Source: Geothrix sp. SG200
GTDB lineage: Bacteria > Acidobacteriota > Holophagae > Holophagales > Holophagaceae
Assembly (NCBI RefSeq): GCF_022808935.1
Contig: NZ_JAKZFR010000002.1
Span: 310,001 to 374,000 of the forward strand
DNA: 64,000 nt
Direction: 5' to 3'
Shown: piece after piece, positions 2,203 through 51,520 of the stretch
Layout: each line of letters starts with the position of its first letter
Position numbering within the stretch: position 1 is the stretch's first letter
Notes under the pieces: generated by a model
Told to the model about the DNA's origin: nothing
Database searches by the model: none
The model's input: the letters and a program-made list of their open reading frames with translations, nothing else
Translations under genes and position numbers: made by a program

Positions 2203-4365
2203 ATGCCCGTCCGCGCCCTCCTGGCCTGCCTGATTCTCGTCCCTGCCCTGTCGGGACAGGGTTCGGGGCAGCTCACCCTCGAATCCGTGGCGCATCCCAC
2301 GAAGCGGGTGGCCTATGCAGGTCGGCCCGCCACGCGCCTGGACTGGCTGCCGGACGGCGCCCTGGTGGAAACCCGCCGGGAGGGCGACCAGGTGGCCCTC
2401 TACCGGATCGATCCCGCCACCTGGGAACGGAAGCCCCTGCTGGAGTCCCCCCGCCTCCAAGCGGCCCTCGTGACGGCAGGGGCCGGAGAGGCCGCCGCCA
2501 AGGAGGCCCTCGGACGCGGCGCCTTCACCTGGAAGGAGGACCACAGCGCCTTCCTTCTGACTGTGGCGGAGCACCTCTTCCTGGTGGATGTGAAGGCGGC
2601 CACGGCCAATCGGCTCGCGGGTGGAAATCCCGAAGAAGCGTCCTTCAGCCCCGACGGCCGGCAGGTTGCCTATCTCAAGGGCAACGATCTCTACCGGGTG
2701 GAGGTGGCCACGGCCCGGGAGACCCGCCTCACCACCGGCGGTGGGGAGACTGTGTTCAATGGGCGCCTGGACTGGGTGTACCAGGAGGAGGTCTATGGCC
2801 GGGGCAGCTTCCGCGCCTTCTGGTGGGCCCCGGACTCGAAGCGCCTGGCCTACCTCAGCCTCGACGAGACCAACGTGCCGGTCTACACCCTGATGGATGA
2901 CCGCTTCCAGCCCCAGAAGGCGCTGAAGGCCCGCTACCCCAAGGCTGGGGACCCCAACCCTACCGCCCGCCTGGGCGTGGTGGACCTCACGGGGGCCACC
3001 ACCTGGATGGACGAACCCTATCCCGGCCAGGAGACCCTCATCGTCCAGGTGGGCTGGGACCCGGCCGGCCACCTGCTGGCCACCCACCAGGACCGGATCC
3101 AGAGCTGGCTGGACCTGCGCCGCTACGAAGGCGCGACCTCCCGCCTTCTCATCCACGAGAACGGCCGCGCCTGGCAGGAGCGCCTGCCCCTGCCCCACTT
3201 CCTCTCCGACGGGGGCTTCCTGTGGGAGTCCGGACGCACGGGGCGCCACCGCGTCTACCGCTACGGCAAGGACGGCCAGCTCATCGGCGCCGTCACGGCC
3301 GGGGACTGGGATGTCCGGCAGGTGCACGGCGTGGACGCCAGGACTGGGCAGCTCTATTTCGACGGGACTGAACGCAGCCCCATCGCCCTGGATGCCTACC
3401 GTGTGGGGCTTGATGGGAAGGGCCTCGTGAGGCTGACGGACCGGCCCGGCACCCACCGGGTGAAGCTCAATGCCGCGTTCACCGCCTTCCTCGACATTTG
3501 GAGCGACATCCACACCCCGCCCCAGCAGGCACTCCACGACAGCCAGGGCAAGCTGGTCCGCCTCATTGACGCCAACCCCGCCGGAGCCTGGAAGGCCCTG
3601 AAGCTTGGCAGGGTGAGCTTCCAGCAGGTGAAGACCCGCGACGGCTTCCCCATGGAAACGATGCTGGTCCTGCCCGTGGACTTCGACCCCGCGAAGAAGT
3701 ACCCCGTGTTCCAGACGCTCTACGGCGGCCCGATGGCCCCCGAAGTCCGGAACCTCTGGCGCCGGGACATGCCCTGGTTCCAGTTCCTGGCCCAGCAGGG
3801 CATCGCCACCTGGGTCTGCGACAACCGCAGCGCCTCGGGGAAGGGCCTGGCCAGCGCCCATGGCATCTACCGCAACCTGGGGGCCCAGGAGCTCCAGGAC
3901 CAGCTCGACGGCCTGGCCTGGCTGAAGGCCCAGGGCTGGGCGGACATGGACCGGATCTGCCTGGACGGCTGGAGTTACGGCGGCTTCATGACCACCTACG
4001 GACTCACCCACAGCAAGGCCTGGAAGCTGGGCATCGCCGGAGCGCCGGTCACGGACTGGCACCTCTACGACAGCATCTACACTGAGCGCTACATGGGTCT
4101 GCCCTCGGCCAACCCGGCCGGCTACGAGTCCAGCTCCGTGCTCAAGGCCGCGGCCAACCTGTCCGGCAGGCTCCTGCTGCTCCACGGCACCCTGGACGAC
4201 AACGTCCATCCCCAGAACACCGTCATGCTCATCGACGCCCTTCAGAAGGCCGGACTTCCTACGCAGATCGTGCTGCTGCCCGGCTCCGACCACAGCCCGC
4301 GCGCACCTCAGCACAACTGGGCGCGGTTCCAGACCATGTGGGAGTTCCTGTCGAAGTACCTATAG
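2203..4365 (+). CDS. Dipeptidyl peptidase IV-type serine peptidase (S9B)
   Basis: This 720-residue secreted peptidase has a signal peptide (about residues 1-19), an N-terminal beta-propeller and a C-terminal alpha/beta-hydrolase. The catalytic triad is visible as Ser591 in GWSYGG, Asp665 in HGTLDDNV and His697 in GSDHS. The paired Glu195-Glu196 in DWVYQEEVYG corresponds to the double-Glu motif that anchors the substrate N-terminus in DPP-IV, so release of N-terminal Xaa-Pro or Xaa-Ala dipeptides in the periplasm is likely. Start ATG follows GGAG. The convergent peptide-type transporter across the repeat element could import the products, and PepQ could cleave them. Confidence 0.9.
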   Translation: MPVRALLACLILVPALSGQGSGQLTLESVAHPTKRVAYAGRPATRLDWLPDGALVETRREGDQVALYRIDPATWERKPLLESPRLQAALVTAGAGEAAAKEALGRGAFTWKEDHSAFLLTVAEHLFLVDVKAATANRLAGGNPEEASFSPDGRQVAYLKGNDLYRVEVATARETRLTTGGGETVFNGRLDWVYQEEVYGRGSFRAFWWAPDSKRLAYLSLDETNVPVYTLMDDRFQPQKALKARYPKAGDPNPTARLGVVDLTGATTWMDEPYPGQETLIVQVGWDPAGHLLATHQDRIQSWLDLRRYEGATSRLLIHENGRAWQERLPLPHFLSDGGFLWESGRTGRHRVYRYGKDGQLIGAVTAGDWDVRQVHGVDARTGQLYFDGTERSPIALDAYRVGLDGKGLVRLTDRPGTHRVKLNAAFTAFLDIWSDIHTPPQQALHDSQGKLVRLIDANPAGAWKALKLGRVSFQQVKTRDGFPMETMLVLPVDFDPAKKYPVFQTLYGGPMAPEVRNLWRRDMPWFQFLAQQGIATWVCDNRSASGKGLASAHGIYRNLGAQELQDQLDGLAWLKAQGWADMDRICLDGWSYGGFMTTYGLTHSKAWKLGIAGAPVTDWHLYDSIYTERYMGLPSANPAGYESSSVLKAAANLSGRLLLLHGTLDDNVHPQNTVMLIDALQKAGLPTQIVLLPGSDHSPRAPQHNWARFQTMWEFLSKYL

Positions 4366-4681
4366 AGTGCCTAACAAAACCCCCACGGGGTCGCGCGAGG
4401 GCCGCCGGGCGAGCGAGGCGTGGAACGCGAGTCAAAGCGTAGCGGGTACTACGCGCGACGAGCGTGACGCGGCATCGCGACGCCCGCCGGCCCTCGCCCA
4501 GAGGGAGAAAGCCAGGTGGGCGCCCCGCGGCGTCACGGCCCTTGAACGATGTCCCGCATCGCCCTGCGGGCCCTTCCCTCTCGGTATCGCCTTCGGCGAT
4601 ACACGAGACGAACTGATATCTGCGGAGCATCCCACCTGGCTTTCTCGCGGCCCCGTCGGGGTTGTGTTAGGCACTCTTAGA
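4364..4681. repeat. Structured non-coding element with 32-bp terminal inverted repeats
   Basis: The roughly 315-bp gap between two convergent stop codons is filled by nested inverted repeats. The ends 4364-4395 and 4646-4677 match as inverted copies at 29 of 32 bases; each arm also contains its own CCCC/GGGG mini-hairpin. Inside, 4505-4520 is perfectly complementary to 4631-4646, 4397-4411 pairs imperfectly with 4480-4495, and GTATCGCC-TTC-GGCGATAC (4584-4602) forms an 8-bp triloop hairpin. No credible ORF is present. It may be a non-autonomous mobile element remnant or a bidirectional terminator array. The hairpin core recurs at 49.3 kb. Confidence 0.8.
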
Positions 4682-49242: not shown

Positions 49243-49280
49243 CCTGCAAAACGGGGCGCGAACGCGCCCCGTTTTGCAGG
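49243..49280. terminator. Perfect 38-bp palindrome
   Basis: Bases 49243-49260 and 49263-49280 are exact reverse complements (18 bp) separated by AA. It lies between the tandem repeats and the SDR start, so it may end transcription from the small secreted-protein gene. There is no clear U tract after it, but the stem contains an A4/T4 block. Confidence 0.8.
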
Positions 49281-49297
49281 TACCGCCTTCGGCGAAA

Positions 49298-49447
49298 CTA
49301 CTTCTTCTTCTCGGCATGGCCTTCGGCCATACGCGAAACCGCCGAGGCATCATCCATCATCGTGGCCTACTTCTTCTTCTCGGTATGGCCTGCGGCCATA
49401 CGCGAGACCGCCGAGGCATCATCCATCATCGTGGCCTACTTCTTCTT
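49298..49447 (-). repeat. Two tandem 69-bp in-frame repeats after a stop codon
   Basis: Units 49298-49366 and 49367-49435 differ at three positions, followed by 12 bases of a third unit that is the gene's own end (three Lys codons and TAG). Each unit is 23 codons, in frame with the gene, and would encode ATMMDDASAVSRMA(A/E)GH(T/A)EKKK followed by its own TAG. Each holds a triloop hairpin, e.g. TATGGCC-TGC-GGCCATA (49384-49400). A decayed partial copy lies at 49281-49297. Confidence 0.92.
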
Positions 49448-49723
49448 GGCGGGAGCCTTCGCGGCAGCCTTGGCTTCGATCTTGGTGGCCACCTGCTTGT
49501 AGGTGACGGTCACCTTGTCGCCAACCTTGAGGGCCTCCTTGCCGGCGGTGCCGCCGTCGGTGTAGAAGCGCCAGGCTTCCTTGCCCAGGTCCAGGGTGAA
49601 GCTGTCGGGGGCCACTTCTTTCACGGTGCCAGTCTTCTGGTAGCTGGCGGCGGCGGCGGCCCAGCCGAGGGCGGCGCCCAGGATGGCCGTGGCCGAAAGG
49701 ACGGCAAGCGACTTCATGCGCAT
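49436..49723 (-). CDS. Small exported protein with Lys/Ala-rich tail
   Basis: This 95-residue protein has a signal peptide (residues 1-26), then a short beta-rich domain (KTGTVKEVAPDSFTLDLG, EALKVGDKVTVTYKQ) resembling small OB-like periplasmic domains, and a tail AKAAAKAPAKKK. ATG 49723 follows AAGGAGAG. I do not recognise the family. What is odd is the 3' end: the stop codon is followed by two in-frame repeat units that repeat the KKK-stop ending. Confidence 0.8.
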   Translation of the reverse strand: MRMKSLAVLSATAILGAALGWAAAAASYQKTGTVKEVAPDSFTLDLGKEAWRFYTDGGTAGKEALKVGDKVTVTYKQVATKIEAKAAAKAPAKKK

Positions 49724-49798
49724 AAGGGCTCTCCTTGAAAAGGTGCCCCAAGGCTAGCAGTCTCTTGCGAAAGGGCAAGAATTACACGAGGGCAATAA

Positions 49799-51520
49799 CT
49801 ACACGAGTGCCAGCAGTCCCACCAGCCAGAAGCTCAGGTCCACGCTCAGCTCGAAGCGGTGCTTTCCCGCCGTGAAGCGCTCGTGGTAGAGCCAGAGGTA
49901 GAGCACGGGATAGGCCGCGCAGGCCACCAGCACCAGGGCCACGGCCAGGGGATGCCCGTGCTGGCGGTTCTCGAAGGTGAGCCAGAGGGTGCCTGCCAGC
50001 AGCGTCCCGAGGAGGCCCACCAGCACCGCCTTGGTGACGGACTTGCCCATGAAGATGGGCAGGGTCTCCTTCCCCACGATCTGATCGTTCTGCATGTCCC
50101 GGATCTCGTAGATGACCGTCCGGACGAAGGTGAGCACCCCCACCAGGAACATGGCCGCGAAGGCACGGAGGTCCCAGACCCGGCCCTCCTGCCAGACCGG
50201 CATGATGACGGCCACCGTGGCCAGGGCCAGGGCCACCACCACATCCTTGGAGCCGGGAACCTTCCTGAGGCTGAGGATCCAACCGCCGACCTGGAAGCGC
50301 CGCTTGTAGCCCGCACCCACCAGAGAAGCAGCCGCTGCCACAGTCAGGGCATTCAGCCCCAGGCTCGCCGCAAGCCCCAGGGTGAGCAGCAGCGCCACCA
50401 CCCCCAGGGCCACGAGGACCCTGCGGTTGCGCTCCAGGAACCGGGCCCGCGCGGGCCCCTTGGCGCCCAGGCCCAGGGGGTCCAGGAAAGGCGTCAGCAG
50501 GTACATGGCCAGCACGTAGGTCCCCGTCAGGAGCGGATAGCGCCAGCCCATGCGAAGGTCCAGCCACTTGTGGACGCCGAGGGTCATGAGCGCGGCGCCC
50601 ACCGCCATCAGCGAGGAGCTGCCGAAGGTCGCCTGGAGGAAGCTGCGCCAGCGGCTCGGGCCGTCCCCCAGCTGCTCCAGCACATCCACCACCTCGTCCA
50701 CCAGCCAGGTGGGAGTGGACGCACCCGCCAGCACGCCCACAGTCTCGCGGCCCGTGAAAGCCCCCAGATCCAGTTCTGCGGCCGTCTCCACGTACTGGAC
50801 GGGCTTGCCGTAGTGGTGGGCCAGCTCGGCCAGATGCTTGGTGTTGCTGGAGGTCTTGCCGCCCACGACGATGACGGTATCCACCGTGCGGGCCAGTTCC
50901 CGGGCCTCGTCCTGGCGCATCCAGGTGTCCTCGCAGATGGTGTTCTCGAAGACCGCATCCACCGCCCGGGAGCGGAGGTAGTCCGTGATGGCGTGGTAGT
51001 CCTTCACGGTGAAGGTGGTCTGGGCCACCACCAGGACCTTCTTCAGCTGCTCGTCCGTGAGCGCCTCGGCCTCGGCCATGGTCGAGACGATCACCGAGCC
51101 GTTCTCCGCGAAGCTGCGGTGGGCCACGCTCTCCGCATGGCCGTGGCTGCCCAGGATCACGGTGAAATAGCCCTTGGGGCTCCACTTCTTGATCTTGTGG
51201 TGGACCTTCGCCACCTCGGGACAGGTGGCGTTCACGATCTTCAGCTCGCCCTTCTTCTGCCGCTCCTTCAGGCCCCGCAGGTCCTGGATGGGGATGCCGT
51301 GGGCCCGGATCACCACCGTGCCGTTCTTCACCTTGTCCGGCGCCTCGGCCACGCCCACGCCGCGCCGGCCGATGAGCTCCAGGGCCTGGGGATTGTGGAT
51401 GAGCGGGCCCAGGGTCTGCACGCTGCGGCCGTCGTTGCGCACGGAGGCCTCCAGCACCGCGTCCATGGCGCGCTTCACTCCCCAGCAGAACCCTGCGGTC
51501 TTGGCGACGATGACTTTCAT
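49799..51520 (-). CDS. ispH: IspH fused to a UbiA-like membrane prenyltransferase domain
   Basis: This 573-residue protein has two parts. Residues 1-285 are 4-hydroxy-3-methylbut-2-enyl diphosphate reductase: [4Fe-4S] cysteines Cys12, Cys100 and Cys196, HNPQ (His42), RAHG (His74), Glu130, the TTF motif and SSNTKHL are present. It makes IPP and DMAPP. Residues 290-573 have about eight membrane spans and the second Asp-rich motif of UbiA enzymes (RDMQNDQIVGKETLP, Asp475 and Asp479). The first motif, usually NDxxD, looks degenerate near FLDPLGLGAKGPARARF. No frameshift or internal start suggests a split. Confidence 0.87.
   Translation of the reverse strand: MKVIVAKTAGFCWGVKRAMDAVLEASVRNDGRSVQTLGPLIHNPQALELIGRRGVGVAEAPDKVKNGTVVIRAHGIPIQDLRGLKERQKKGELKIVNATCPEVAKVHHKIKKWSPKGYFTVILGSHGHAESVAHRSFAENGSVIVSTMAEAEALTDEQLKKVLVVAQTTFTVKDYHAITDYLRSRAVDAVFENTICEDTWMRQDEARELARTVDTVIVVGGKTSSNTKHLAELAHHYGKPVQYVETAAELDLGAFTGRETVGVLAGASTPTWLVDEVVDVLEQLGDGPSRWRSFLQATFGSSSLMAVGAALMTLGVHKWLDLRMGWRYPLLTGTYVLAMYLLTPFLDPLGLGAKGPARARFLERNRRVLVALGVVALLLTLGLAASLGLNALTVAAAASLVGAGYKRRFQVGGWILSLRKVPGSKDVVVALALATVAVIMPVWQEGRVWDLRAFAAMFLVGVLTFVRTVIYEIRDMQNDQIVGKETLPIFMGKSVTKAVLVGLLGTLLAGTLWLTFENRQHGHPLAVALVLVACAAYPVLYLWLYHERFTAGKHRFELSVDLSFWLVGLLALV

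Follow-up and report, generated by a model that had tools for sequence, protein, structure and literature searches.

What does a UbiA-like membrane domain do when it is joined, in one polypeptide, to IspH, the enzyme of the last MEP step? This question is raised by a gene of Geothrix sp. SG200 located in a 64,000-nucleotide stretch of DNA that was analyzed as a whole (here named the window). The gene consists of a single open reading frame of 573 amino acids plus stop on the minus strand (window positions 49799 to 51520), and its position, strand, and frame were all verified. The preliminary description had read it as IspH and a UbiA-like domain in one frame, and this reading was borne out, with both domains exceeding the curated Pfam cut-offs. 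The gene and its parts are the following:

49799..51520, minus strand: ispH-ubiA fusion gene; one open frame, with full-length homologues across other genomes
50672..51520, minus strand: IspH (LytB) domain, residues 1 to 283; Pfam LYTB (2.8e-79), TIGR00216 (253 bits; cut-off, 188), and the E. coli IspH fold (Z 31.8)
51485..51487, minus strand: C12, first cysteine of the IspH cluster; invariant in alignment A2 and placed from the sequence
51221..51223, minus strand: C100, second cysteine of the IspH cluster; from alignment A2 and the sequence
50933..50935, minus strand: C196, third cysteine of the IspH cluster; from alignment A2 and the sequence
50633..50671, minus strand: short linker, residues 284 to 296, without a stop and without a plausible internal start; from the predicted structure and the sequence
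49802..50632, minus strand: UbiA-fold membrane domain, residues 297 to 573 (approximately); Pfam UbiA (50.6 bits; cut-off, 34.2), AlphaFold2, and Z 18.0 to A. pernix UbiA (4od5)
50468..50494, minus strand: first Asp-rich motif, degenerate, T343-PFL-D347-PLG-L351; from the alignment and the sequence
50243..50260, minus strand: conserved loop V421-PGSKD-426, including K425 (K in 86 of 87 sequences)
50084..50098, minus strand: second Asp-rich motif, intact, D475-MQN-D479 (D475 in 82/87 and D479 in 86/87 sequences; local dN/dS of about 0.16)

We considered whether the locus could instead give rise to two separate proteins or represent an assembly or frame artefact. At the IspH/UbiA junction, no in-frame stop was found, and the in-frame ATG and GTG codons lack a ribosome-binding site at the usual distance; translation of a second protein from an internal start was therefore dismissed. 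The identical continuous frame was found again in dozens of independent assemblies from several phyla, which argues against both chance and assembly error, and an artefact was dismissed because independent genomes share the fusion. We found nothing in favor of this explanation and regard it as hardly credible.

The first half of the protein is readily recognized as IspH. Pfam LYTB matched residues 3 to 281 with 266.6 bits (cut-off, 24.5), the NCBIfam IspH model TIGR00216 scored 253.4 bits (cut-off, 187.85), and the predicted alpha/beta fold matched E. coli IspH (3szu) with a Z score of 31.8 in VIA-align. The cluster cysteines C12, C100, and C196 are present, together with H42, H74, H128, E130, T168, S224, S225, N226, and S268, which we take from the E. 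coli positions to be the IspH pocket set (His, Glu, Thr, Ser, and Asn); most of these residues are invariant in alignment A2. The Geothrix genome harbors one ispH, namely, the fusion, and one ispG, and HMG-CoA reductase, which was looked for in the same genome, is absent. Judged from this gene content, the fused IspH is very probably the genome's sole source of IPP and DMAPP, and the IspH half very probably essential. A fusion of the IspH-S1 type was dismissed, since Pfam gives LYTB and UbiA only and no C-terminal S1 repeats or other S1 domain were found in the protein.

A UbiA partner of IspH had initially been considered unusual, which does not hold, as the IspH-UbiA layout is a known architecture published in 2015. 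Rao et al. (PMC4746011) described 47 IspH-UbiA hybrids, said to be from sulfate-reducing anaerobes and mainly from Desulfobacterales. These hybrids contain two DXXXD repeats, and their UbiA part, which was assigned to PT_UbiA_5, had no known function. The authors proposed membrane localization and a local supply of IPP and DMAPP, and an active full-length hybrid could not be expressed. The names Acidobacteria, Geothrix, and Nitrospina are absent from the main text of that paper, and in our literature search the term IspH-UbiA was otherwise met only in a reference list.

A search for the domain pair across genomes, as suggested in the preliminary description, revealed the fusion in three phylum-level groups; the layout is thus that of a widespread known family, an outcome that the same description had listed as speaking against its proposal. 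The closest named loci belong to Geothrix-type Acidobacteriota, i.e., Geothrix paludis (98% identity) and G. terrae (97%). A profile of the UbiA half matched 42 of 297 sampled Acidobacteriota genomes, 37 of which carry the fusion as judged from frame length or reading of the locus: 28/28 Holophagaceae, five members of a second family (f2), and four others, including G375 (L110). The other five matches were weak and fall into family f6, and the one inspected (L111) looks like an ordinary MenA-like gene. A Nitrospinota-type phylum, that of L053, gave matches in 19 of 24 genomes, with frames of 565 to 620 amino acids unless cut by a contig end, and the phylum of L052 has the fusion in 11/77 genomes plus one weak unfused match. 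Weak matches aside, no free-standing close relative of the UbiA half was found in the three phylum-level groups searched, and strong matches were all fused to IspH, save for genes truncated at contig ends. Trees of the IspH and UbiA halves, which were quick trees with modest support and some long branches, gave nearly the same groups, consistent with the halves travelling together. Nitrite-oxidizing Nitrospinaceae are aerobes, and since a record titled Nitrospinaceae (L054) is among the fusion carriers, the distribution in Nitrospinota questions the earlier tie to anaerobic sulfate reducers. Our search places the fusion in lineages not mentioned in the main text of Rao et al., and in a form whose first motif is weaker.

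We next turn to the UbiA half. Pfam UbiA matched residues 367 to 551 with 50.6 bits (cut-off, 34.2) over profile positions 67 to 240; as the match begins at position 67, the first quarter of the profile, in which motif 1 is expected, is unmatched. None of the NCBIfam prenyltransferase models was passed by the second half. AlphaFold2 (29 homologues; mean pLDDT, 82.3; pTM, 0.71) predicted eight long membrane helices and a short ninth, so that the domain first described as eight-span keeps its eight long helices and gains one short helix. The membrane placement that had been thought likely was supported as well. In VIA-align, the second half matched A. pernix UbiA (4od5) with a Z score of 18.0 and an rmsd of 3.3 over 248 residues. 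When the membrane half was folded alone, 4od5 was still the top match (Z 15.8), with soluble prenyl diphosphate synthases close behind (14.2); the fold match by itself therefore cannot tell the two apart, whereas the Pfam match can.

Canonical UbiA enzymes carry the motifs NDXXDXXXD and DXXXD (PMC7839719). In the Geothrix protein, the second motif is intact (RDMQNDQIVGKETLP, residues 474 to 488), with D475 and D479 forming the DXXXD of the UbiA superfamily, and the first departs from NDXXDXXXD, having T343xxxD347xxxL351 at the N-x-x-x-D-x-x-x-D site. One intact and one degenerate Asp-rich motif had been noticed before, and an alignment of 87 distinct sequences, over which motif conservation was counted, confirmed this. 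D475 (82/87), D479 (86/87), and K425 (86/87) are near-invariant, as are Y405, P422, and G483, and the third Asp of motif 1 is missing family-wide. In Holophagaceae, the Asn position of motif 1 is occupied by S, T, A, or N (N in only 2/49), and the middle Asp (D347) is retained in 45/49. The middle Asp is replaced by R, N, or L in one Nitrospinota clade, and S occurs in motif 1 of three of five f2 sequences. Asn and middle Asp are both kept in all sequences of the G247 phylum and of one Nitrospinota clade. Several lineages have independently lost the Asn or the middle Asp, and the retention of D347 in most Holophagaceae may mean that some metal-dependent chemistry survives.

Two further fusions deviate from this picture. 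The one at L065 (frame 2627-4399, minus strand) is the reverse of the window protein, with the Asn and middle Asp of motif 1 kept and motif 2 lost (DIWVIQSNGLVGKEALP); diphosphate binding, as proposed below, would thus not be universal in the family. The Holophagaceae genome G372 harbors a second fusion copy (L109:1027-2604, 525 amino acids) whose UbiA half has neither Asp motif intact; of motif 2, it retains the final Asp alone.

Mean pairwise dN/dS among 40 close homologues was about 0.14 for IspH and 0.26 for the UbiA half and, within the latter, 0.41 for residues 366 to 460 and about 0.16 around motif 2; these are simple NG86 values from non-independent pairs, with saturated pairs omitted, and are meaningful only as a contrast between regions. 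Purifying selection acts on IspH and the UbiA half alike; the latter is not in decay, and its second motif is constrained almost as tightly as IspH. This bears on the idea that the UbiA half only anchors the protein in the membrane or is a structural pseudoenzyme, without ligand binding in either case. Such a role would fit the degenerate motif 1 of the window protein, the L065 fusion without motif 2, and the L109 copy without most of both motifs. However, neither the near-invariance of D475, D479, K425, and the surrounding loop across phyla nor the low dN/dS near motif 2 would be expected of a pure anchor, and we consider this idea improbable.

The genome was also checked for another ubiA or menA, as proposed earlier, and four further UbiA genes were found (L001, L002, L003, and L004), including a UbiA/MqnP-type gene of 333 amino acids (L001) and a CyoE gene adjoining coxB (L002). 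Three of the four retain NxxxDxxxD. We therefore dismissed the fused domain as the genome's sole quinone or haem prenyltransferase; with these separate genes present, quinone and haem O synthesis can be accounted for without it. The CyoE protein (L002:347-1240, minus strand) has Glu at the expected middle Asp of motif 1 (NEVQERRYD). At L003:805-2343, the UbiA domain is itself fused to a flavodoxin-like oxidoreductase (512 amino acids; motif SNDWFDQGTD kept), and a gene recognized by eye as ispE (L003:16-753) lies just upstream (both in the same genome, G000:C3, about 390,600-392,940).

Gene context of the fusion varies between lineages. In the window, the fusion gene and the gene for PEP carboxylase diverge, and the downstream neighbor of the fusion encodes a protein of 95 amino acids with no Pfam match, so that the context points to no function. 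A plus-strand frame at 49274-49738 encodes a stretch of about 23 residues (GHTR-RRGIIHHRGLLLL) twice in nearly identical form (window about 49310-49440), which indicates a short direct repeat in the DNA close to this downstream neighbor. In family f2, a gene for a xylose-isomerase-like TIM-barrel protein lies directly upstream of the fusion (L060:1953-2774 and L061:5084-5902) and overlaps the fusion start in L060. Seven Nitrospinota-type loci were read, and in three of them the fusion is immediately followed by an O-methyltransferase gene:

L054:7774-8790, same strand as the fusion: O-methyltransferase, Methyltransf_2 with dimerisation domain
L055:7749-8756, same strand as the fusion: O-methyltransferase, Methyltransf_2 with dimerisation domain
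L095:4512-5516, same strand as the fusion: O-methyltransferase, Methyltransf_2 with dimerisation domain

This arrangement hints at an active UbiA enzyme in those loci, whose prenylated product the methyltransferase might go on to methylate. Rao et al. (PMC4746011) argued for such an enzyme, i.e., a prenyltransferase with an unknown acceptor to which the fusion would channel prenyl diphosphates derived from IPP and DMAPP. The near-invariant motif 2 and loop lysine would suit this proposal, as would the Asn and middle Asp kept in the G247 phylum and one Nitrospinota clade. Against it stand the family-wide loss of the third motif 1 Asp, with further decay in Holophagaceae, a Nitrospinota clade, and part of f2, and the separate presence of four UbiA genes, one of them of the UbiA/MqnP type. 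Moreover, IspH yields C5 units, and most UbiA enzymes would need chain elongation first. We regard an active prenyltransferase as possible, though rather unlikely. With motif 1 down to one Asp, the UbiA half of the Holophagaceae branch probably does not work as an ordinary aromatic prenyltransferase.

The reading that we prefer, with middling confidence, is a membrane-tethered IspH whose UbiA partner probably still binds prenyl diphosphate and is unlikely to act as an ordinary prenyltransferase in the Holophagaceae branch. The UbiA-fold domain would covalently hold the cell's only IspH at the cytoplasmic face of the inner membrane and would bind Mg and prenyl diphosphate via D475/D479 and K425. 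In the Holophagaceae branch, it would serve mainly as a membrane-localizing, prenyl-diphosphate-binding partner of IspH. The tether may keep IspH close to the prenyl synthases and prenyltransferases that consume IPP and DMAPP. By analogy, the UbiA half could also sense prenyl diphosphate and adjust the output of IspH, as a bacterial covalent counterpart of UBIAD1-HMG-CoA reductase. A sensor would fit the retained motif 2 and lysine beside a degraded motif 1, and we rate it as speculative and improbable; if true, a prenyltransferase fold would have become the feedback subunit of an enzyme in the isoprenoid pathway.

IspH is usually regarded as a soluble enzyme. That entire families and phyla have conserved the fusion implies that placing the last MEP step at the membrane is truly beneficial. 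With motif 1 repeatedly lost and motif 2 almost strictly retained, the role of the partner domain can be put to the test.

Among known systems, the hybrids of Rao et al. (PMC4746011) likewise have an N-terminal IspH and a C-terminal UbiA-like domain in one frame, occur in genomes with separate UbiA/MenA genes, and were proposed to be membrane localized; by their published description, they carry two DXXXD repeats, whereas the Geothrix protein carries only the second. IspH-RPS1 fusions (PMC4746011) also combine IspH with a C-terminal partner, but this partner is ribosomal protein S1, a domain that the Geothrix fusion lacks. UBIAD1-HMG-CoA reductase, which also pairs a UbiA-family protein with an isoprenoid-pathway enzyme and is represented among the fold matches by 8djk, serves as an analogy only, since it is eukaryotic and non-covalent and controls degradation of the mevalonate-pathway enzyme (PMC4374513). 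The archaeal UbiA homologues (A. pernix 4od5 and A. fulgidus 4tq3) share the fold, as seen in the match to 4od5, and the second Asp motif with the Geothrix protein, but have both NDXXDXXXD and DXXXD (PMC7839719), whereas its first motif is degenerate.
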